Shown here piece by piece: positions 1,719 through 14,070 of a DNA stretch of 59,101 nucleotides (positions are counted from its first letter, which is position 1; each line of letters opens with the position of its first letter). The stretch is from NCBI GenBank assembly GCA_903885965.1, contig CAISKQ010000057.1:1-59101 (forward strand). The letters run 5' to 3'. Below the pieces are notes generated by a model, which was given only the letters and a program-made list of their open reading frames with translations, did no database searches and was not told where the DNA came from. The position numbers and the translations under genes were made by a program. The DNA is from an uncultured bacterium. Its GTDB lineage: Bacteria > Patescibacteriota > Minisyncoccia > Moranbacterales > GWC2-37-73.

Positions 1719-3488
1719 GTGGCTGTAAAACAAAAAATAATGCAAATAGCAAATAAACAATTGAGGGATTTCATCATTGATTCAGGAATGCTGGATAGCG
1801 GCGTGATTGAAGAAAATTTCAATGAAGCAACCAAGCAAGATAAGAAGTTTGGCGATTTATTGATAGAGAAAAACATTATCAGTGAAATTGATCTTAAGAA
1901 GTTGTACTCTTACATCTTAGGAATTCCATTTGTGAATTTGGAAAAAGAGGTAATTGAAAATGACATCCTGCATATAGTGCCAGAACCAATTGCGAAAAAA
2001 TATGGAATCGTAGCTTTTGAAAAAGATGGCAATAATCTGAAGGTAGCGATGAAAAATCCGGAAGATCTTCAGACAATAGATTTCATTCGAAAAAAAACAG
2101 GCCTCAAAATTGTCCCTTGTCTTACTAGTGAGGACAACATTAAGATAGTTTTAAAGCAGTATGAAAAGAGTCTAAAGGCTGAATTTGGAGATATCATTAA
2201 AAAAGATTCTGAGGATGCTGCATTAAATGATTCGGAAGATGATTTGGAAAAGATTGCTCAGGATCTTCCAATTGTGCGCATAGTTGACACCCTTATTAAG
2301 CATGCAATTTTGCAATCTGCCAGCGATATTCATATTGAACCTGACGAAAAAGAAATCCGAGTCAGGTATAGAATTGACGGAATTTTACACGACGCCATGA
2401 CTCTTCCAAAGCAGGTCATGGGTGGACTGATAGCTCGCATTAAGGTGTTGTCAAACTTAAAACTTGATGAACATCGATTGCCTCAGGATGGTCGCTTTAA
2501 GATTGAGAAAGATGGGTACAAGATTTCATTTCGAGTCAGTATATTGCCAGTTTTTGAAGGTGAAAAAATCGTTATGCGTCTTTTAGATGAGACATCGAAG
2601 GGCTTAACGTTGGAAAAAATGGGTCTCTTTGGGGATGATCTTGAGAAAGTTCATCAACATATTAAACGCCCAAATGGCATGATACTGGTTACGGGTCCCA
2701 CTGGTAGTGGAAAAACAACAACTCTGTACACGATAATGGATATTTTGAATACATCCGAGGTTAACATTAGTACCGTTGAAGATCCCGTGGAATATCGCAT
2801 GCAGCGAGTTAACCAAACGCAAGTCAATACAAAAATTGGAATGACTTTTGCTGCAGCACTTCGTAGTCTCCTTCGTCAAGATCCTGATATTATCATGGTA
2901 GGTGAAATTCGAGATGGAGAAACTATGCAGATTGCGATTGAAGCTGCGATGACTGGTCATCTCGTGCTCTCAACTCTTCACACGAACAGTGCTGCTGGAA
3001 CTTTGCCACGCCTTTTAGATATGGGAGCTGAAGCATTTTTGGTTGCATCGACAGTCAATGTTATCATTGCTCAACGGCTTGTGCGAAAATTATGCAATGA
3101 CTGCAAGGTTGCTTATAAGTTTGAAGAAAAAGATGTAAAGAATTTGCAAGCAAGTTTTGACATGGCTGAAATATTGGAAGTTTACAAAAAATCACCACAG
3201 CTGAAGGGCGTTATCGATGCAAAGAGTACTTGGAAAAATATTCAATTTTATAAGGCGCAGGGCTGCGAAAAGTGCAGCAATGAGGGATATCATGGACGAC
3301 AAGGAATTTATGAGGTTTTAGTTATGGATGAAAAAATTGGAAAATTGATTACCTCAAACGCGTCAGCTGATGAAATAGAGAGAGAGGCAAGAAAAGACGG
3401 AATGCATAAGATGTATGAAGATGGTTTCATTAAGGCGGCTATGGGTGTAACATCCATCGAAGAAGTATTGAGAGTGACCAAGGAGTAG
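1719..3488 (+). CDS. pilB: Type IV pilus assembly / type II secretion ATPase (PilB/GspE family); start may be 1719 (GTG) or 1740
   Basis: Walker A GPTGSGKTTTLY, Asp box, RSLLRQDPDIIMVGEIRD, GHLVLSTLHTN, CxxC near C-terminus. Confidence 0.95.
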   Translation: MAVKQKIMQIANKQLRDFIIDSGMLDSGVIEENFNEATKQDKKFGDLLIEKNIISEIDLKKLYSYILGIPFVNLEKEVIENDILHIVPEPIAKKYGIVAFEKDGNNLKVAMKNPEDLQTIDFIRKKTGLKIVPCLTSEDNIKIVLKQYEKSLKAEFGDIIKKDSEDAALNDSEDDLEKIAQDLPIVRIVDTLIKHAILQSASDIHIEPDEKEIRVRYRIDGILHDAMTLPKQVMGGLIARIKVLSNLKLDEHRLPQDGRFKIEKDGYKISFRVSILPVFEGEKIVMRLLDETSKGLTLEKMGLFGDDLEKVHQHIKRPNGMILVTGPTGSGKTTTLYTIMDILNTSEVNISTVEDPVEYRMQRVNQTQVNTKIGMTFAAALRSLLRQDPDIIMVGEIRDGETMQIAIEAAMTGHLVLSTLHTNSAAGTLPRLLDMGAEAFLVASTVNVIIAQRLVRKLCNDCKVAYKFEEKDVKNLQASFDMAEILEVYKKSPQLKGVIDAKSTWKNIQFYKAQGCEKCSNEGYHGRQGIYEVLVMDEKIGKLITSNASADEIEREARKDGMHKMYEDGFIKAAMGVTSIEEVLRVTKE

Positions 3489-3550
3489 CTGTACATAACT
3501 TAGTGTTATTTTAGGTTTCATATTTAGTTGGGAGGTAAGTAGTTAAATTT

Positions 3551-4777
3551 ATGCCAAAATTTATATATACCGCTAAAAATTATAGTGGTGAAAAGAAGGG
3601 CGGTGAAATTATCGCACGTGATGAAAAGACACTGGCTAGTCAACTCAGAAGTGATGGTTTCTTGGTCACTTCCATAGCACTTGTTCGTGAGGATCAATCC
3701 GCGAGTGGTGTTCAGGTAAAATTTTTTGACAGATTTAGCAATGTTCCGTTAAAGGAAAAGATGGTATTTGCGAGAAATCTTAGTGTAATGATAAGCTCAG
3801 GACTCACTGTTTCGCGAGCTGTTGGTAATCTTGCAATGCAAGTTGAACACAAAGGCTTTAAAAAAATTCTTAATGATATTTTTGAAGAAATACAAAGCGG
3901 AAAAACACTTAGTGAGGGGTTTGCCAAATATCCAGGAGTTTTTGGTGATCTTTTCATAAATATGGTTAAGGTCGGCGAGGTGGCTGGAAATCTTGATGAG
4001 GTGCTTAAAATAGTTTCAGTGCAAATAGAAAAAGAGCATGATTTGAAGGGAAAGGTAAAAGGTGCGATGATTTATCCAGCTGTCATTTTATCGGTGATGA
4101 TTATAATTGGAATACTCATGTTAACCTATGTGCTTCCTCAAATGATGGGCGTGTTTAAGGGTATGAATGCTAAGTTGCCGCCAATGACTCAGTTTTTGGT
4201 TGATCTTAGTGATGCAATGAAAAACAACGGCATAGTTGTGGCGATAGGATTTATTAGCTTGATAAGTTTTTTGAACTATTTTCTTCATCAAAAAGCTGGC
4301 AAAAAAGCTCTGGGATATTTTACAGTACACGTTCCTATTTTCAGCCCTATCGTAAAACAAGTTAATTGCGCTCGCTTCGCTAGAATATATAGTTCATTGC
4401 TAAAGAGTGGAGTCAATTCTGTTGAGGCTCTTGGGATTATTTCAAATACCCTTTCCAATTATTATTACAAAGAAGCATTATTGAAAGGTGTGGAGGACAT
4501 TCAAAAAGGAGTTCCATTGAGCACTATTTTATCAAATCGCCCGGATGTTTTTCCAATTCTTGTATCTCAAATTGTTCAAGTCGGAGAAGAGACTGGAAAA
4601 ACAGAAACAGTATTGCTTCAGTTGGCAGAATATTACGAAGATGAGGTTGACCAGGTAACTAAAAACATGTCCTCAATCATCGAGCCTCTCTTGATGGTTG
4701 TGATAGGTGGGTGTGTTGGTTTTTTTGCCGTGGCTATGCTTTTGCCTATGTATAGCCTGATGGACAGTATTAAGTAG
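3551..4777 (+). CDS. pilC: Type IV pilus inner-membrane platform protein PilC/GspF
   Basis: Two T2SSF repeats with FARNLSVMISSGLTVSRA and FARIYSSLLKSGV, VGEETGKTETVL motif. Confidence 0.95.
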   Translation: MPKFIYTAKNYSGEKKGGEIIARDEKTLASQLRSDGFLVTSIALVREDQSASGVQVKFFDRFSNVPLKEKMVFARNLSVMISSGLTVSRAVGNLAMQVEHKGFKKILNDIFEEIQSGKTLSEGFAKYPGVFGDLFINMVKVGEVAGNLDEVLKIVSVQIEKEHDLKGKVKGAMIYPAVILSVMIIIGILMLTYVLPQMMGVFKGMNAKLPPMTQFLVDLSDAMKNNGIVVAIGFISLISFLNYFLHQKAGKKALGYFTVHVPIFSPIVKQVNCARFARIYSSLLKSGVNSVEALGIISNTLSNYYYKEALLKGVEDIQKGVPLSTILSNRPDVFPILVSQIVQVGEETGKTETVLLQLAEYYEDEVDQVTKNMSSIIEPLLMVVIGGCVGFFAVAMLLPMYSLMDSIK

Positions 4778-4839
4778 TTATTATTGTATGGGGATATGAA
4801 CATGTTGGCATGTGAATATCTTTTTATTTTCAATAAAAT

Positions 4840-6225
4840 ATGTTTTTTCAAAAATTGAAAAAAAATAAATGCAATGGCTTCACTCTCATAGAGATGATGG
4901 TTTTTATGTTTATGCTTACTATTGCAGGAGTTACTTTCTACAAGGTATTTGCAACAGGAACACTTGCTATGAGTAATGTTAAAAGTAGACTTGGGGCAGT
5001 TCAGCTCGCAAATGAGAAAATTGAAATAGCCCGTAATCTCAAGTATGAAGATGTTGGAACAGTGGGCGGTATTCCAGACGGGAAACTTTCACAAACAGAA
5101 ACAGAGATTCGTTCTGGTAAAACGTATTATGTTCATAGTTCAGTCGTGGCTATAGATGATCCTTTTGATGGAACCTTGGCAGCCGGAACGGACTCTCGAC
5201 CAGCTGATTACAAACAAGTCAAGATTATTGTTTACTGGGAGGATGATAATCCTGCAAAGTCAACATCGGTAGTGGCAACTATCTCTCCGCCAGGAGTGGA
5301 AGCTATGTACACAGGTGGAATTCTTTCTTTGAATATTGTTGATAGTTCAGGTATCGGTATCCCAAATGCCAATGTTAAAATTATCAATGGTTCTGTTTCG
5401 CCAGTAGTTAACGCTCAATATACAACAGATTCTTCTGGCAATCTTTTTCTCCCTGAGGTTATTCCATCTTTGCAAACCTATAGTCTTCAGATTACAAAGA
5501 ATGGCTATTTTCCAGTTCAGACATATGCGCCTTATCCAATAAGTAGTGTTAACCCGATTGATATTCACGCCAGTGTTGTTAATGCAAGCATCAATCAAAA
5601 AACCATTGTAATGGATAAACTTTCAACAATTAATTTGTATACCAAGTCACCGCTTGGAGAAATAATTCCAAATATTGATTTTTCACTAGCGGGCGGTAGA
5701 AGAACTTCTAATACTATAGCTACGCCGCCACTTCCTGTTTGGTCACTTGTTCAAACGGTTTTCAACTCATCAGCTGATGGAAAAAAAACTTTAACGAACA
5801 TAAGTTCAGGGCCTTATTATTTTACATATCCGTCTGGAATTCAAAATGATAAGTATGCGCTTTTGTATCTTGATGCCGCCGCAGATTTATCTAATGTATT
5901 TAACTTACCTCCAAATACTGCGTTGGATGTCAATGTAGTACTGGCTAATAAGGAGACCGATTCTTTGTTGGTTACAGCCCTTACTGATGCTGATAGTGCG
6001 CCTATCGCGGGCGCTTCAGTTGAGCTCAAGAGCGTAATTGGAGCATATGATGTTACAATGACAACGAATAAATTTGGAAAAGTTTATTTTCCAGACTCTA
6101 ATGCAACTCTTGTTGCCGGTGGTTACAAGTTAAGCATTGTGGCTGCAGGCTTTACTGACATCATAGATAAGGATGTTACGATTAATAAATTTACCACTCA
6201 AGAAGTCAAAATGGTAATAGAATAA
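4840..6225 (+). CDS. Prepilin-type protein with carboxypeptidase-regulatory-like repeats
   Basis: N-terminal GFTLIEMMVFMFMLTIAGVTFY prepilin motif; two Ig/CarboxypepD_reg-like stretches. Confidence 0.85.
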   Translation: MFFQKLKKNKCNGFTLIEMMVFMFMLTIAGVTFYKVFATGTLAMSNVKSRLGAVQLANEKIEIARNLKYEDVGTVGGIPDGKLSQTETEIRSGKTYYVHSSVVAIDDPFDGTLAAGTDSRPADYKQVKIIVYWEDDNPAKSTSVVATISPPGVEAMYTGGILSLNIVDSSGIGIPNANVKIINGSVSPVVNAQYTTDSSGNLFLPEVIPSLQTYSLQITKNGYFPVQTYAPYPISSVNPIDIHASVVNASINQKTIVMDKLSTINLYTKSPLGEIIPNIDFSLAGGRRTSNTIATPPLPVWSLVQTVFNSSADGKKTLTNISSGPYYFTYPSGIQNDKYALLYLDAAADLSNVFNLPPNTALDVNVVLANKETDSLLVTALTDADSAPIAGASVELKSVIGAYDVTMTTNKFGKVYFPDSNATLVAGGYKLSIVAAGFTDIIDKDVTINKFTTQEVKMVIE

Positions 6226-6227
6226 AT

Positions 6228-6866
6228 ATGATTTTTTTGAAAAAAATAATGAATTCAAGAAAGAGAGGAATAACCCTTGTTGAAACGCTCGTCGCTGTAG
6301 CGATTCTTATTATGGGCATCGGTGGTTTCACTATGCTCGCCGCGAAAAGTTGGAAAATGAATGCATTTGTGATTGAATCCGGAAATGCTACAAGCAAGGC
6401 AACAAGTGCGCTAAATCAAACGATTAAAAGTTTAAGGGAGATTAGGCAAGCTGATGATGGAAGTTACCCGGTTAAGGATGTCGCTAAAAATAGTCTCACC
6501 GTGTATCTGGATGATGACAAGGATGGAAAGGCTGAAAGAGTGCATTATTATCTTGAAACTGCTACACAAACGTTTAAAAAAGGAATTACAAAATCAAGTG
6601 GCACTCCTGCTGCTTATCCTGCCGGCGATCAGACGGTAAAAATTATCTCCAATTACGTCGTTAATACAATTTCTCAGCCAGTTTTTGAATACTACAATAA
6701 TGATTACCCAATTGACGCTATAAACAATCCACTTAGCAGCCCCGTTCCTGCAGATGTCAAGTTAGTAAAAGTTCGTCTCTGGATAAATATAAAACCACTC
6801 ACTGCCCCGGACAATATAAATCTGGAATCTTTTGCTGAGTTTAGGAACCTTAATGAAAACAATTAA
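6228..6866 (+). CDS. Prepilin-type protein (PilV/PulJ-like)
   Basis: RGITLVETLVAVAILIMGIGGFTML prepilin motif; pilus operon context. Confidence 0.85.
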   Translation: MIFLKKIMNSRKRGITLVETLVAVAILIMGIGGFTMLAAKSWKMNAFVIESGNATSKATSALNQTIKSLREIRQADDGSYPVKDVAKNSLTVYLDDDKDGKAERVHYYLETATQTFKKGITKSSGTPAAYPAGDQTVKIISNYVVNTISQPVFEYYNNDYPIDAINNPLSSPVPADVKLVKVRLWINIKPLTAPDNINLESFAEFRNLNENN

Positions 6867-8472
6867 TATGAAAGTTGAAAATAAGAAAGCTGCTGTATTT
6901 AGAAATGAAAAAGGTTCGGCCATTGCTTATGCGTTGGTTATTATTGTGATGATTTCAATATTGCTTTCCTCGATGGTGCAATTTATTGTAAATAATTCCA
7001 AAAGTGCATATCAAACTCAAAGTAAAGAAGAAGCATTTCAAATTGCTGAGGCTGGGGTTAATTTTTATCGTTGGTATCTTGCTCATGAAACAGATGGGAG
7101 AACTGCTATGCAAATTCGGGATTTTTGGCAAGGTACAAGTCCTGACCCATATGGGCTGAGGAATAACTCCCCATATGAGCGAGACTATGTGGATGCTCAA
7201 GGCGGAGTGCTTGGAAAATACAGTATTGAAACCTCTGCTCCAGATCCTAGTTCAACAATTGTTTACGTCGCTGTTACGGGCTGGACTAGTAAATATCCAG
7301 CTATTAAAAGAACTATAAATGTGCGCTTCAGGAGACCTTCTTGGAGTGAGGATAGTGTGCTGGCTAATGACTTTATGCGCTTTGGCGAGGGAACTACTGT
7401 TAATGGTAAAATACATTCTAATTCTGGCATTCGCTTTGATGGAATTGCAACCAATGTCGTTTCGAGCTCCTTGAGCACTTATGATGATCCGGATCATACG
7501 GGAGGTAGTGAGTTTGGGGTACATACGCATGTTAACGCTCCGCCAGCTAGTGGAATAAACGACAATCAGAGACCTTCGGAGGCTCCGCCAAGCGTCGTTT
7601 CTCCGCGAATCGATGTATTTAAAGCTGGAAGAGATTTTCCTACGCCACAAGTTGATTTTGCAAGTGTTGTTTCTGATATTTCTTTTATGAGAAGTCAGGC
7701 TACGGTGAAATTTGACAATAGTGGGGCGGGACGCAGAATCATTTTAAAGGCCGATGGCAATTTTAATTCTTGCAAAGTAAATTCTTACTCGGTTTATAAT
7801 CCTATCGGGTACACTGGCTCAAGCGGTATTACTGATTACAATGGAGTCATCACTGGAGCGTCAGGTTCCTATGCTTCAACTAATGGACTTAGTTGCGTTA
7901 CAGTTGATTGTTGCGATGCAGGTAGCTGCTCCCTGATTCAAGCTAGTAAGCCAAGTAAAGGCAAGTGCATAAGCATTACAAGCGGGGTTATTCCTAATGG
8001 GGGAATTATTTTTGTGGCAAATAATCTCTGGCTAGAAGGAACAATAAGTGGCAAAAAAGTTTCTTTTGTTGCGGCCGAACTTTCTGACGAGCCTGGATAT
8101 ACTGGCGGAAATAAAAATGTTTTTTTAGGCATGAATAATTTGCGCTATACAAATCATGATGGTAACGACATTATTGGTGTAATAGCACAGGAAGACGTTG
8201 AGGTAATCAAAGATAGCCTTAATGATTTATTTATCGATGGAGCTCTTTTAGCAAAAGGTGGTCGCGTTGGTAGATATTATTATGGAAATTCTAAAAATAG
8301 CATCACAGTTAATGGTTCAATTGCAACGTATGCCAGATATGGATTTGCATACACAGATGGGACAGGATATCAAACGCGTAATCTTGATTTTGATAATAAT
8401 CTATTATACTTTCCTCCGCCGTATTTTCCTACCGGCACACAATACTCCATAGATTCTTGGGAGGAGGACTAG
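6832..8472 (+). CDS. PilX-like pilus-associated protein; probable start near 6853
   Basis: N-terminal GSAIAYALVIIVMISILLSSMVQFIV helix, overlap with preceding prepilin gene, extracellular Ser/Gly-rich domain. Confidence 0.7.
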   Translation: MLSLGTLMKTINMKVENKKAAVFRNEKGSAIAYALVIIVMISILLSSMVQFIVNNSKSAYQTQSKEEAFQIAEAGVNFYRWYLAHETDGRTAMQIRDFWQGTSPDPYGLRNNSPYERDYVDAQGGVLGKYSIETSAPDPSSTIVYVAVTGWTSKYPAIKRTINVRFRRPSWSEDSVLANDFMRFGEGTTVNGKIHSNSGIRFDGIATNVVSSSLSTYDDPDHTGGSEFGVHTHVNAPPASGINDNQRPSEAPPSVVSPRIDVFKAGRDFPTPQVDFASVVSDISFMRSQATVKFDNSGAGRRIILKADGNFNSCKVNSYSVYNPIGYTGSSGITDYNGVITGASGSYASTNGLSCVTVDCCDAGSCSLIQASKPSKGKCISITSGVIPNGGIIFVANNLWLEGTISGKKVSFVAAELSDEPGYTGGNKNVFLGMNNLRYTNHDGNDIIGVIAQEDVEVIKDSLNDLFIDGALLAKGGRVGRYYYGNSKNSITVNGSIATYARYGFAYTDGTGYQTRNLDFDNNLLYFPPPYFPTGTQYSIDSWEED

Positions 8473-8560
8473 CACATTGCGTTTTAAGTAATTATGAAAT
8501 ATGAAGAAAATAGTGTAAAATTAAAAGGCTAAAAATGCCTGAAAAATATAAAAATAAAAA

Positions 8561-9646
8561 ATGAGCTTTCTAAATAAAAAAATTTGTAGTAATTCTTCCA
8601 GTATATTCGGACTTGATTTGAGTGACCTTTCGGTTAAGCTTATTAAGTTTGAGAATAATGGTGTGGAAGAGAAAATTGTCAGCTATGGATGTGTGTCTCT
8701 GCCAGTTGGCGCCGTGAGTGATGGTGAGATAAAAAAGAAAGAACAGATTGTGGTGGCAATAAAAAAACTTATTGAAACTTCAGGACCAAAAAAAATAAAA
8801 ACGAAAAAAGTTATCTGTAGCCTTCCTGAGACAAAAGCTTTTTTGCGAATTATAAGTATTCCAAAAATGAATGATAATGAAATAGGCGAAGCTGTTAAAT
8901 GGGAAATGGAAGCGAACATTCCGTTGCCGCTCGAACAGGTTTATTACGATTGGCAAATCGTTACTGAGGCCCTAACTACGGAAAAAAACAAAATAAATCT
9001 ATTAGTCGTTGCAGTGTCAAAAACAACAGTGGACGAAACCATAGAGGTTATTGAGATGGCAGGACTTGAAGTTGTTGGGCTGGAGATAGAATCAATTGCG
9101 CAATCCAGGAGTCTCCTTTGCTGCGATGACTACAAAAAAACAGTTTTGATAGTTGATATTGGAGATAGAAGAACGAGCTTTTCAATTTCAAAGGAGGGTG
9201 TTCCATGTTTTACTTCCAGTGTTCCCCTTAGTGGACAATCTCTTTCTGATGTCATCGCTAAGGGAATGGGTATTTCATTTGAGGAAGCTGAAAAAATAAA
9301 ACTAACCCACGGTATCGGCTGTGATCCTAAAAATGATTCTTTGTTCAAGTTAGTAGAACCAGTTCTTGAAAGTTTTTCTCAGGAGATAGAAAGATCGATA
9401 AATTTTTATTTATCAGGATTGGGATACTCAAAAAATATTGATAAGATAATTATTTGCGGTGGAGGTGCGAATACAAAGGGAATTGTGCCATATCTATCAA
9501 AAAAGTTAGGACGAGAGATTCAACCTGGAAATCCATGGTCGAATGTAAATTTAGGAAAAAAATTGCCAATTATTGAAAAAAGTCAATCATTGCAATATTC
9601 AACAGCTATAGGTTTAGCATTAAAAGCACTCCAATATGAAGATTAG
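8561..9646 (+). CDS. pilM: Type IV pilus assembly protein PilM (actin-like ATPase)
   Basis: FGLDLSDLSVKLIKF phosphate-1 motif, DIGDRRTSFSI, CGGGANTKGI; operon position. Confidence 0.93.
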   Translation: MSFLNKKICSNSSSIFGLDLSDLSVKLIKFENNGVEEKIVSYGCVSLPVGAVSDGEIKKKEQIVVAIKKLIETSGPKKIKTKKVICSLPETKAFLRIISIPKMNDNEIGEAVKWEMEANIPLPLEQVYYDWQIVTEALTTEKNKINLLVVAVSKTTVDETIEVIEMAGLEVVGLEIESIAQSRSLLCCDDYKKTVLIVDIGDRRTSFSISKEGVPCFTSSVPLSGQSLSDVIAKGMGISFEEAEKIKLTHGIGCDPKNDSLFKLVEPVLESFSQEIERSINFYLSGLGYSKNIDKIIICGGGANTKGIVPYLSKKLGREIQPGNPWSNVNLGKKLPIIEKSQSLQYSTAIGLALKALQYED

Positions 9647-10190
9647 TCTTGATTTGCTTCCTCAAAACAAAAAAGATGAAATACGAAGAAGTAAATTTTT
9701 TCGTGAACTTTTGCGTACGGAGATATTGTTCTTTTTTCCTATTTTAATTCTCATCGTTATTTTAATTAATGTGCTATATCTGTTGAAGATTCAGCAAAAT
9801 GGAAGTATTGCAGACTATGAATTTCAGCAGAATCAAAGTCAATATCAAGAGTTGGATAAATACGACAAGAATTTTAAAGCTATAAATGAGGCTACTGGTT
9901 TTTTGATAAAAATTCAAAATGGACATTTGCAATGGTCAACCGTCTTGAACCATTTGAGTCAGGTTATTCCAAGTGGTATTGTTATAAATAATTTTTCCAA
10001 TAAGAACTATGACATTTATTTGACTGGGCAGGCCAAAACCCGCGATAAACTGCTTGAATTTAAGGGTAATCTAGAAAAGGATGCATGTTTTGGAAAAATT
10101 AATGTCCCACTCTCAGACCTTGTTGTTAAGGAGAATGTTGATTTTCAAATGGATTTCAATGTTAGCCAGGATTGTTTGAGAAATAAATAA
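9636..10190 (+). CDS. pilN: PilN-like pilus assembly protein
   Basis: Overlaps pilM end; N-terminal DLLP motif, one TM helix, coiled-coil and ferredoxin-like region. Confidence 0.82.
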   Translation: MKISLDLLPQNKKDEIRRSKFFRELLRTEILFFFPILILIVILINVLYLLKIQQNGSIADYEFQQNQSQYQELDKYDKNFKAINEATGFLIKIQNGHLQWSTVLNHLSQVIPSGIVINNFSNKNYDIYLTGQAKTRDKLLEFKGNLEKDACFGKINVPLSDLVVKENVDFQMDFNVSQDCLRNK

Positions 10191-10302
10191 ACAGCGAATA
10201 ATTCAGGATGATTTTATTTATTAGCATGAAAATTTTCTGTGGGATGCAGGTTGCTTGAACTAAAAAAATAGCGAGCGTTTAAATCATTTTTTATATTCTT
10301 AG

Positions 10303-11001
10303 ATGACAAAATTTCTAAAAAATCAACGAGAACTTGTTGTGCTAGCACTATTTTTTGTTGTGATTGGTGGGCTTGGGTATTTTGTCATTATGCCGCTATT
10401 GAAAAGTATTACGCTTGTCAGGGATGGAATACAGGAGGAAGCCATTAAACAAGACATAAGAAGGCAAAAACTAAATGAACTGCCAAAGATAAGGGAACAG
10501 TTTGCAAAAATTAATAATCAACAAAATAAAATAGATATACTACTTAGTAAGGATCAGGCAGTTGTTTTGATTGAGCGATTGGAGAAGCTCTCTCAAGATA
10601 CGGGTAATACAATAGTAATTTCGATTAATGATGGTCTGCAACAAGCAGCTAATCCAGCCCTTGCTAAAGCAGGCTCAGCAACAGCTAACTTGGTAGAGTC
10701 ATTGCCAAGCAATGACTATTTGAAATTAACAATTTCTTTGACTGGGGACTACGATGGACTTTTTAAATTCATTAGTGGCCTAGAAACGTTTGAATATTAT
10801 GGTGATATTATTGGTATTAATATTAGCCACTCAACTGATAGTGGCTTGCCATCCGCGGCCGGTGCAGCGCCGATTAATGGAGTTCTGAATCCATTTAATG
10901 CCCAATTAACACCTGGCGCATCTTCCACAAATACCGCAGCCAAGCAAAATGGCAGCAAATTGGATACCTCGTTGGAAGTAGTTTTTTATACTAAAAAATA
11001 A
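10303..11001 (+). CDS. pilO: PilO-like pilus assembly protein
   Basis: Single TM plus coiled coil, YLKLTISLTGDYDGLFKFISGLE PilO-like motif. Confidence 0.78.
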   Translation: MTKFLKNQRELVVLALFFVVIGGLGYFVIMPLLKSITLVRDGIQEEAIKQDIRRQKLNELPKIREQFAKINNQQNKIDILLSKDQAVVLIERLEKLSQDTGNTIVISINDGLQQAANPALAKAGSATANLVESLPSNDYLKLTISLTGDYDGLFKFISGLETFEYYGDIIGINISHSTDSGLPSAAGAAPINGVLNPFNAQLTPGASSTNTAAKQNGSKLDTSLEVVFYTKK

Positions 11002-11400: not shown

Positions 11401-12165
11401 TCATTTTTGTTGGTTGGTTGTTTTCCAGACAAGCTTGAAAATTTGTTGCATTACGTCAGCGATATCTGGGTTTTCAATCAAAATTCCTTGCAAGTAGCGA
11501 TGTGAAATTATCTGCGTAAAATTGTCATAGACTTCAAGGGAAATATTGCTGGAATAATCTTTTTCAATAAGTGTCCTTAAATCCATTTTTAATTTCTTTT
11601 TTGTTTCTGCTGCTAAATAGTTTTTAATTGATGGGTGGAGAGTTGTGATTGCTGTCCTTTTTATGTTATTTTTTGCGTAGTCATCGTTTAATTGTAACCA
11701 GTATTCCTGTAGAAAATTGGGAGTGTGTTTTTGATGAGCATAAAAAGCAATAAAAGATCTTTCAGGAAGAGGTTTCTTTTGCATTTTGGCGATAAGCTGG
11801 TCATACATTTTTTTAATTCCTTCAAATCCCTCAAAATACGCAACGCTAACTTTTTCATCAGCTTTCTTTTGAATTGCCAGTAGCTCTGGCAGCATTTCTT
11901 TGGTGGCAGATAACTTTTCTTGAGCAATGGCAATACATTCACGTGGTGATTTGGCAATGAAATAATGTTTGTCTGCCTGGGGAATCTTAAGGGCAAATCC
12001 TTTAGAAACTAAGTTATCCAGAACAACATAAGCGGTGGCATTTTTCAGCTTGCTTCTGATTCCAATGGTGTAGGCCGTTGCTCTTTCCAAACCTAAAAGT
12101 GCCAAATAGACACTGGCTTCCTTTTCATTTAGGCCTAAATTCAAGAGTGATTCTGTTAATTCCAT
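11401..12165 (-). CDS. TrmB-family winged-helix transcriptional regulator
   Basis: LTESLLNLGLNEKEASVYLALLGLERATAYTIGIRSKLKNATAYVVLDNLVSKGF N-terminal wHTH of TrmB type. Confidence 0.85.
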   Translation of the reverse strand: MELTESLLNLGLNEKEASVYLALLGLERATAYTIGIRSKLKNATAYVVLDNLVSKGFALKIPQADKHYFIAKSPRECIAIAQEKLSATKEMLPELLAIQKKADEKVSVAYFEGFEGIKKMYDQLIAKMQKKPLPERSFIAFYAHQKHTPNFLQEYWLQLNDDYAKNNIKRTAITTLHPSIKNYLAAETKKKLKMDLRTLIEKDYSSNISLEVYDNFTQIISHRYLQGILIENPDIADVMQQIFKLVWKTTNQQK

Positions 12166-12298
12166 AAATCAAGCCTAGCAAGTTTTCATTAATTAGTCAA
12201 TAAATATGATGACTATGAGATATTAACTTAAAAATAGGCTTAAAAAAGCTATAAAAGATAAAATATTAAATCACTAAAGTTGATTATATTTGTATTTC

Positions 12299-12351: not shown

Positions 12352-13479
12352 ATGGAAAACTTTGCAATGAATTTGTGGCTCGAATATATTATTGGGAAAT
12401 CTGAAAAAGATGATATTGGAGAAATGTATGCCCAATTAGCAAGGGAATTGCCAAAAGTAATGTCTGTGGTGGCAACGCGGCATTGCAATTTGCAGTGCAA
12501 GCATTGCATTTTTCAAAAAGAGCGGCAATATTTTTTCAATGGAGCTGCTCTAGAAATCGCAGTAAAAACTATTGTTAGCCAAATGTTGCCTAATCCAATT
12601 GTTGTGCATGAGGGTCGAATTTTTGAGCCGAAACATTTAAGTTGGCTTCAGGCAATTCGTCAAATCAGACCAGATAACAAAATTGGAATGATTGATAATG
12701 GCTCATACGCTACGCATATTAGCAAAATTAAATTAGCCGGCTTTAAATTTGATTGGCTGGACATTTCAGTAGATGGCCCAAAAAGAATTCATAATTTTCA
12801 AAGAGGTTCCAAAGATTCTTTTGAAGTAGCGATTAATGGCATCAGAAATGCGCAGAAAGTTTTGACAGCAGACGGTGAAGTAAATTCCTTGATGACGCTG
12901 ACGAAAATAAATTATGCTTCAGTGCTGGAAACTTGTAAAACACTTCCTAAGCAAGTAAGCCAATGGCATATCGCAACTATCACACCAACTAGGGCTGAGT
13001 TAAAGAAATTAACTTTAAGCGAAAATGAATTTAAAATTAGTTGGAATCAAATCAAGTTGGCAAATGTTTTGAGAGTTGTTGTCTTGAAGATTTATGAAGT
13101 CAGTGACATGTTGAAATTGGCTAAAGCTGTTGGTGGCGTAAAATTTTTTGAAGCATTTGAAAAAGCTCAGATGGGATTTTCATCTGTAAATTTTGTGCTT
13201 GAGGGAGTTTTGGTACGTTATTTTCCACAGTCGATGGCACCAAAAGAAACTTTCGTGCTTGATGGTGGAGTTTATCGCGTGCCGTATTATGGAATTTCTC
13301 ATACCCTAGCGGAATTAAATAGGGAAGAGTTAGAGAAATATACAATTGGGAAAGTAACTGCAGAAAGTAATTTCCGCTTGTTATATGAAGAGTGTGTGAT
13401 AGGGTGGCGAGAAAATTTTTCTCGGGAAGCTTTCAAGGAAGAAGCTTTTATTTTTCAACAAATCAAAAATTTACAATAA
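12352..13479 (+). CDS. Radical SAM protein, no obvious SPASM Cys cluster
   Basis: CxxxCxxC motif in TRHCNLQCKHCIFQ; SD-like GGAGG upstream; VDGPKRIHNFQRG radical SAM fold motif. Confidence 0.9.
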   Translation: MENFAMNLWLEYIIGKSEKDDIGEMYAQLARELPKVMSVVATRHCNLQCKHCIFQKERQYFFNGAALEIAVKTIVSQMLPNPIVVHEGRIFEPKHLSWLQAIRQIRPDNKIGMIDNGSYATHISKIKLAGFKFDWLDISVDGPKRIHNFQRGSKDSFEVAINGIRNAQKVLTADGEVNSLMTLTKINYASVLETCKTLPKQVSQWHIATITPTRAELKKLTLSENEFKISWNQIKLANVLRVVVLKIYEVSDMLKLAKAVGGVKFFEAFEKAQMGFSSVNFVLEGVLVRYFPQSMAPKETFVLDGGVYRVPYYGISHTLAELNREELEKYTIGKVTAESNFRLLYEECVIGWRENFSREAFKEEAFIFQQIKNLQ

Positions 13480-13493
13480 AGGGGGTGATTAAA

Positions 13494-13565
13494 ATGTCAG
13501 GAGCTAACACTGGATCGAAAGGCTCAAGAAACGGTGGCGCAAACACCGGAAGCGTTGGAAGCTGA
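13494..13565 (+). CDS. 23-aa peptide MSGANTGSKGSRNGGANTGSVGS; candidate rSAM substrate / RiPP-like precursor
   Basis: ATG..TGA reading frame 14 bp after the rSAM stop, preceded by strong SD AAAGGGGGTGAT, followed at once by a terminator; perfect internal GANTGS repeat. Absent from supplied ORF track because of size. Confidence 0.7.
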   Translation: MSGANTGSKGSRNGGANTGSVGS

Positions 13566-13566
13566 G

Positions 13567-13612
13567 TAAATAGGGAATGCGTAAATAATTATGCGCGTTC
13601 CCTATTTTTTTA
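13567..13612 (+). terminator. Rho-independent terminator of rSAM-peptide operon
   Basis: AAATAGGGAATGCG / CGCGTTCCCTATTTTTT hairpin with T tract. Confidence 0.85.
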
Positions 13613-13653
13613 TACAACAAAAAACCCAGATGAAAATCGGAGTTTTTTCTTTG

Positions 13654-13727
13654 TGCGCTCTGAGGGATTCGAACCCCCGACCTTCTGGTTCGAAGCCAGA
13701 CACTCTATCCAGCTGAGCTAAGAGCGC
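13654..13727 (-). tRNA. tRNA-Arg (TCG)
   Basis: Acceptor GCGCTCT/AGAGCGC, anticodon loop CTTCGAA, GGTTCGAATCC-type T arm. Confidence 0.93.
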
Positions 13728-13807
13728 GTGTCGAAATTGTAATTTTTTGATTCTTTCGTATTGAATTCTTCGAAATTCAATTTTTAGATTTTCTTAAACT
13801 AAAACTG

Positions 13808-13880
13808 GGCGATCACAGGGAATCGAACCCTGGTTCTCGGTACCACAAACCGATGTCTTAACCGTTAGACGATGATCGCC
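13808..13880 (-). tRNA. tRNA-His (GTG)
   Basis: Anticodon loop TTGTGGT, extra 5' G, GGGTTCGATTCCC T arm. Confidence 0.92.
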
Positions 13881-13898
13881 ATACATAATAAAATCCTG

Positions 13899-13970
13899 TA
13901 CCCCCACCAGGAATCGAACCTAGATCTTCAGCTTAGAAGGCTATTGCTCTATCCGTTGAGCTATGGGGGC
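13899..13970 (-). tRNA. tRNA-Arg (TCT)
   Basis: Acceptor GCCCCCA, anticodon loop CTTCTAA, AGGTTCGATTCCT T arm. Confidence 0.88.
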
Positions 13971-13995
13971 AAATTTCTCTTCTGGTGAGAGAATT

Positions 13996-14070
13996 GTGGG
14001 TTATGCAGGATTCGAACCTGCGACCATTGGCTTAAGAGGCCACTGCTCTACCAACTGAGCTAATAACCCA
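13996..14070 (-). tRNA. tRNA-Lys (CTT)
   Basis: Acceptor TGGGTTA, anticodon loop CTCTTAA, GCAGGTTCGAATCCTGC T arm. Confidence 0.9.

Follow-up and report, generated by a model that had tools for sequence, protein, structure and literature searches.

A putative radical SAM peptide-modifying system with A-N-x-G-S micropeptides in Patescibacteria

The window analyzed here, a 59,101-nucleotide stretch of DNA from an uncultured patescibacterium, contains a very short open reading frame whose 23-residue product carries the motif GANTGS twice. Because this frame lies directly behind a radical SAM gene, and because the pairing recurs in scattered Patescibacteria, the micropeptide most likely serves as substrate to a peptide-modifying system that has not been described before. 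With a divergent TrmB-like regulator, the locus is best read as a three-gene radical SAM RiPP-type system in which the micropeptide would be the precursor and each A-N-x-G-S a single site of modification; we place the probability of this reading at about three in four. The original prediction had drawn no link between the peptide and the adjoining enzyme. Loci are designated by L numbers and genomes by G numbers.

The micropeptide and its repeat

The relevant features of the window are as follows.

13480..13489, + strand: Shine-Dalgarno sequence AGGGGGTGAT of the micropeptide, strong by direct reading, beginning directly after the enzyme stop codon
13494..13565, + strand: micropeptide MSGANTGSKGSRNGGANTGSVGS, 23 residues plus stop, putative substrate/precursor
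13500..13517, + strand: motif copy 1, GANTGS (GGA GCT AAC ACT GGA TCG)
13536..13553, + strand: motif copy 2, GANTGS (GGC GCA AAC ACC GGA AGC)
13568..13607, + strand: strong intrinsic terminator, 16-pair stem plus T run, about -23 kcal/mol, two bases past the peptide ORF
13653-14069, - strand: four tRNA genes (Arg tcg, His gtg, Arg tct, Lys ctt), directly beyond the terminator
1719-11001: type IV pilus cluster (T2SSE, T2SSF, N_methyl, PilX-like, PilM, PilN), just upstream of the TrmB-like regulator

The micropeptide ORF begins 14 nt past the radical SAM gene (12352-13479). Four of the six motif codons (Gly1, Ala, Thr and Ser; 6 nt in total) differ between the copies, and those for Asn (AAC) and the second Gly (GGA) are the same; five differing codons had been counted originally, which was a miscount, whereas the use of TCG in one copy and AGC in the other for Ser was given correctly. 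Independent draws from local codon usage would yield 3.9 differences, so the codon difference alone excludes a fresh DNA copy and nothing more. The repeat is nonetheless not due to chance, since a repeated 6-mer appeared in only 44 of 200,000 shuffles of the micropeptide residues and the GANTG coding pattern is found at one place in the 1.27-Mb genome, namely this ORF. Searches for families returned no match in Pfam for the window micropeptide, and none in NCBIfam for the micropeptides.

The comparison of synonymous and nonsynonymous change between orthologues that had been proposed beforehand was carried out with L020, the locus with the most similar enzyme. The two peptides differ at 11 codons, in each case synonymously, with 0 nonsynonymous differences, although about 74% of random single changes in the peptide would be nonsynonymous, and their single indel comprises one whole codon between the motif copies. 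The proposal that selection acts on the peptide, as opposed to a fresh duplication of the DNA, is thus supported, and the selection is purifying. The TCN/AGY serine split is common to both species; the two motif copies are therefore older than the divergence of these species. A comparable ribosome site precedes most of the homologous peptides (no clear one was seen in L027, L029 and L042, the L029 peptide being the least certain), and such sites, together with the selection, suggest that the micropeptide is translated.

An ORF of chance origin or of leader type, its conservation due solely to overlap with RNA signals, would also be short and adjoin a terminator. Such an origin is very improbable given the exclusively synonymous change, the retention of the motif in loci with the ORF on either side of the enzyme gene, and the fact that terminator sequences differ between loci: hairpins 3' of the peptide in L020, L021, L022 and L025 are unrelated in sequence to that of the window.

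Past the tRNA genes are VanW, HSP20 and PrsW-like genes (Pfam), followed by a large ORF that we take, from its translation by eye, to encode valyl-tRNA synthetase. A separate observation was made on contig C3 of G009 (L043, 4365-6500), where ValS-like, PrsW-like, HSP20 and VanW genes likewise adjoin a divergent TrmB-like regulator, a radical SAM gene and the micropeptide MASVAGSKGGVKKPPKKPKKEK. This peptide (MASVAGSKGG...) lacks the motif Asn, and the L043 enzyme has extra C-terminal cysteines.

The radical SAM enzyme and the adjoining peptides

12352..13479, + strand: radical SAM enzyme, 375 aa, putative peptide maturase (PF04055, E 3.1e-8; CxxxCxxC at C45/C49/C52)

Membership in the radical SAM superfamily is indicated by a PF04055 match above the gathering score, the invariance of C45, C49 and C52, and Foldseek matches to radical SAM structures. 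The AF2 model is confident (pLDDT 90); its Foldseek matches, with TM scores of about 0.5-0.6 to the query, are headed by DesII and followed by anSME, SkfB, viperin and CteB. The family profile weakly matches SkfB, YydG/EpeE, cytosylglucuronate decarboxylase and anSME, and single members weakly match the profiles of WgkB, DynA and HxsB. Against NCBIfam, every listed cut-off went unreached, with scores far below. The only invariant cysteines in the family alignment (A4) are the three of the cluster motif; invariant auxiliary-cluster cysteines, as in rSAM/SPASM maturases, are thus absent from A4. The AF2 secondary structure has no N-terminal winged helix of the RRE type.

Whole-genome searches identified enzyme homologues with identities of 89% (L020, G003), 55% (L021, G111), 44% (L022, G059), 52% over a partial gene (L023, G009) and 31% (L028, G186; L029, G246). 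Loci L024-L027 came from one scan of genome contigs and L042 (G703) from the phylum sample, and a 29% homologue (L040) is located on an uncurated IMG/VR contig outside the Patescibacteria set. The enzyme is rare and patchy, occurring in 4/381 genomes of the phylum sample and, at E 1e-10, in 7/132 genomes of the order, though G069 and G115 count among these seven by weak matches only; the loci are accordingly few. A scan of viral contigs with the window enzyme alone found no relative; searching plasmids with the L040 enzyme gave nothing, and with the window enzyme one NirJ match at 24%. Weaker radical SAM matches in relatives (L006-L010, L012, L013, L016, L017) have no such peptide alongside.

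Several further observations concern individual loci. In G009 (L005/L023), the contig end falls within the enzyme gene and the preceding stretch reads like a transposase C-terminus; since the gene is cut near the contig end with a transposase-like stretch 5' of it, this copy may have been broken by an insertion. A Cys-containing small ORF (MVVKKYEKPVVVSPGYSPEPVEAGCCLTSCGGSPGG...) was noted upstream of another radical SAM gene on contig C12 of G006 (L006), possibly a different peptide system. In L041 (2363-8758, on an IMG/VR contig), the distant enzyme homologue and the MGAANSGSVG... peptide are situated inside an oligopeptide-type ABC transporter cluster comprising a double ABC ATPase, SBP_bac_5 and two permeases.

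A motif-bearing peptide adjoins the enzyme on the same strand in 13 loci, the window and 12 others, with its ORF upstream in some and downstream in others. The peptides of the relatives are given by locus.

L020: MSGANTGSKGSRGGANTGSVGS
L021: MSGANTGSAG...
L022: MGGANTGSTGK and MDSGASTGSAGK
L023: MTGANTGSVG...MSGANTGTAG...
L024: MAGANAGSTF...
L025: MAGANTGSAG...
L026: MAGANSGSVH...ATNIGS...VSNIGS
L027: MNMNLGSKNR... and MNLNLGSKNR...
L028: ...ASNCGSKGG...
L029: ...ANAGTSGD...
L040: MGAANSGSVG...
L042: MAGANTGSAG...

Altogether, these 13 loci hold 20 motif copies in 15 peptides (four overlapping regex matches being omitted from the count), with the consensus A-N-x-G-S; Asn is conserved in 19 copies, Gly in 20 and Ser in 18. 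In 13 of the 15 peptides the first residue of the motif is at position 3-5, and a Lys/Pro-rich basic tail often follows. Where the enzymes are about 30-55% identical, the motif is kept and the remainder of the peptide is changed. For short ORFs (8-90 residues) that have a ribosome-site-like sequence, NxGS occurs in 10/16 adjacent to the enzyme vs 2/304 others (Fisher p 1.9e-13), a p-value that is descriptive because the loci are partly non-independent (the close relatives window and L020 are both included) and the motif was defined on the same loci. Nine matches to a DNA pattern of ribosome site plus MxGANxxG were found on viral contigs, and tblastn placed a related enzyme near 0/9; the N-terminal motif alone is therefore not diagnostic.

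Each peptide holds one, two or three motif copies, and in L022 and L027 the copies are spread over two tiny ORFs. Such an arrangement is more easily reconciled with a series of substrate sites than with a stoichiometric partner, which makes it distinctly unlikely that the micropeptide serves as the enzyme's small partner or carrier (an activator or scaffold, for example) and that the enzyme acts on another molecule. That role would be in keeping with the very short, basic, low-complexity peptides, with DesII, which is not a peptide maturase, as the top Foldseek match, and with the lack of linked export machinery.

The TrmB-like regulator and the intergenic dyad

11401..12165, - strand: TrmB-like regulator, 254 aa, transcribed divergently from the enzyme-peptide operon (PF01978, E 6.7e-13)
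12194..12215, no strand assigned: operator-like dyad TAGTCAATAAATATGATGACTA in the shared regulator/enzyme intergenic region

The regulator has the TrmB HTH domain (PF01978), and its AF2 model (pLDDT 85) finds TrmBL2 as its best Foldseek matches. Homologous regulators are encoded divergently beside the enzyme in ten loci (the window, L020, L021, L022, L024, L025, L026, L028, L029 and L043), that of L043 being more divergent than the other nine; none adjoins the enzyme in L027, L041 or L042. The pattern GTCAA-N6-TGA[CT][GA]A is present in nine of the ten homologous intergenic regions vs 0.0025 expected from dinucleotide shuffles, a comparison that is descriptive, as the pattern was derived from the same ten regions. 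A longer form of the dyad has one exact match in the window genome, at this locus; at three mismatches its genomic matches are no commoner than in the control. The TrmB-like protein probably controls the operon through this conserved dyad, to which it would bind.

The peptide, modified or not, might itself be the effector sensed by the regulator, closing an autoregulatory circuit that would be compatible with the RiPP-type reading. Conservation of regulator and dyad alongside the enzyme-peptide pair, the uniqueness of the dyad in the genome, and the control of RaS-RiPP operons by Rgg/SHP quorum sensing in Streptococcus (PMC13361665) are in its favor. We regard such a circuit as unlikely, because the closest structural matches are to an archaeal chromatin protein, TrmBL2, and not to a peptide sensor, and because L027, L041 and L042 have no regulator beside the enzyme.

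Proposed chemistry and relation to known systems

In the RiPP-type reading, the micropeptide would be a ribosomal precursor that, in the window, presents two sites to the adjoining enzyme. The [4Fe-4S] cluster bound by CxxxCxxC would generate a 5'-deoxyadenosyl radical, which would abstract a hydrogen inside the motif; the resulting change would be possible without a core Cys or an aromatic ring. Epimerization, a small ether or C-N ring based on Asn/Ser/Thr, and a new C-C bond are all candidates. The window peptide and most of its relatives contain no core Cys for a thioether, as in sactipeptides and ranthipeptides, and no core aromatic residue for a cyclophane, so both chemistries are unlikely.

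This reading draws on the same-strand pairing in 13 loci, the NxGS enrichment, the one to three motif copies, the 11:0 ratio of synonymous to nonsynonymous differences, and the conserved regulator and dyad. It draws also on the weak enzyme matches to SkfB, YydG/EpeE, anSME, WgkB, DynA and HxsB and on the precedent of TvgA/TvgB. Counted against it are the rarity of the system, the L043 peptide without Asn, the lack of an N-terminal winged helix of the RRE type in the AF2 model, and the lack of any evidently linked transporter or protease in the Patescibacteria loci. The peptides also have no recognisable leader, and hence depart from the usual, though not universal, RiPP architecture of N-terminal leader and C-terminal core.

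Conversion of a single residue in each motif to its D-form, as by the single-cluster proteusin epimerases or EpeE, is a specific chemistry within the RiPP-type reading that we consider possible but doubtful. The sole invariant cysteines are those of the radical SAM cluster, the family profile weakly matches YydG, and proteusin epimerases, which have only that cluster, act leader-independently (PMC8326336). Known epimerases, however, use a critical Cys, and none is invariant outside the cluster motif in A4, where its position could differ among members; strong sequence similarity is also absent. The resemblance to proteusin epimerases and EpeE/YydG lies in a putative peptide-modifying radical SAM enzyme, with weak profile similarity.

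A TIGSVS-type repeat system exists. The nearest published logic is that of TvgA/TvgB, in which TvgB acts on the TVGG repeats of TvgA to give poly-cyclopropylglycine, every copy of a short motif that lacks Cys and aromatics being modified (PMC9062424). In both cases a radical SAM gene adjoins that of a precursor in which a short motif free of these residues recurs, modification of the ANxGS peptide being putative. The TVG pathway differs in its TVGG motif, its rSAM-SPASM enzyme, and its linked dioxygenase and transporters; the present loci have ANxGS, none of these genes and no auxiliary-cluster Cys. Streptococcal RaS-RiPPs, whose subfamilies are named by core motif and which are under Rgg/SHP control (PMC13361665), likewise combine a radical SAM enzyme, a short precursor and a transcription regulator in a small operon, but NxGS is found in 0/16 of the listed motifs, the regulator is Rgg instead of TrmB-like, and the precursors have leader and core. 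Graspetide clusters are predicted RiPP clusters in the same bacterial group, the Candidate Phyla Radiation (PMC8939145), and differ in their ATP-grasp ligase chemistry and unrelated precursors. No description of an ANxGS system emerged from the open-access literature searched on GANTGS and on radical SAM RiPPs in Patescibacteria/CPR. Judged by sequence, no known family appears to fit, as NCBIfam cut-offs are unreached and auxiliary-cluster Cys, leader and, mostly, core Cys and aromatics are absent.

A broader proposal, held tentatively and at somewhat less than even odds, is that these loci represent a new class of leaderless radical SAM peptides, with precursors of 11-12 residues at the shortest, in which a single-cluster enzyme introduces a novel modification at each A-N-x-G-S under a dedicated TrmB-like regulator. 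The class would be found in Patescibacteria and possibly beyond, the latter on account of one distant homologue whose gene adjoins those of an oligopeptide-type ABC transporter. Few of the acceptor groups that radical SAM enzymes commonly use are present in the motif, and the chemistry could therefore be new; chemical synthesis of such short precursors is feasible, and the motif specifies the residues to test. The product may serve as a secreted signal, a cofactor or a toxin-like peptide. Few secondary products have been described from Patescibacteria, whose genomes are small, and a recurring peptide-modifying system among them would be relevant to their interactions with hosts or rivals.
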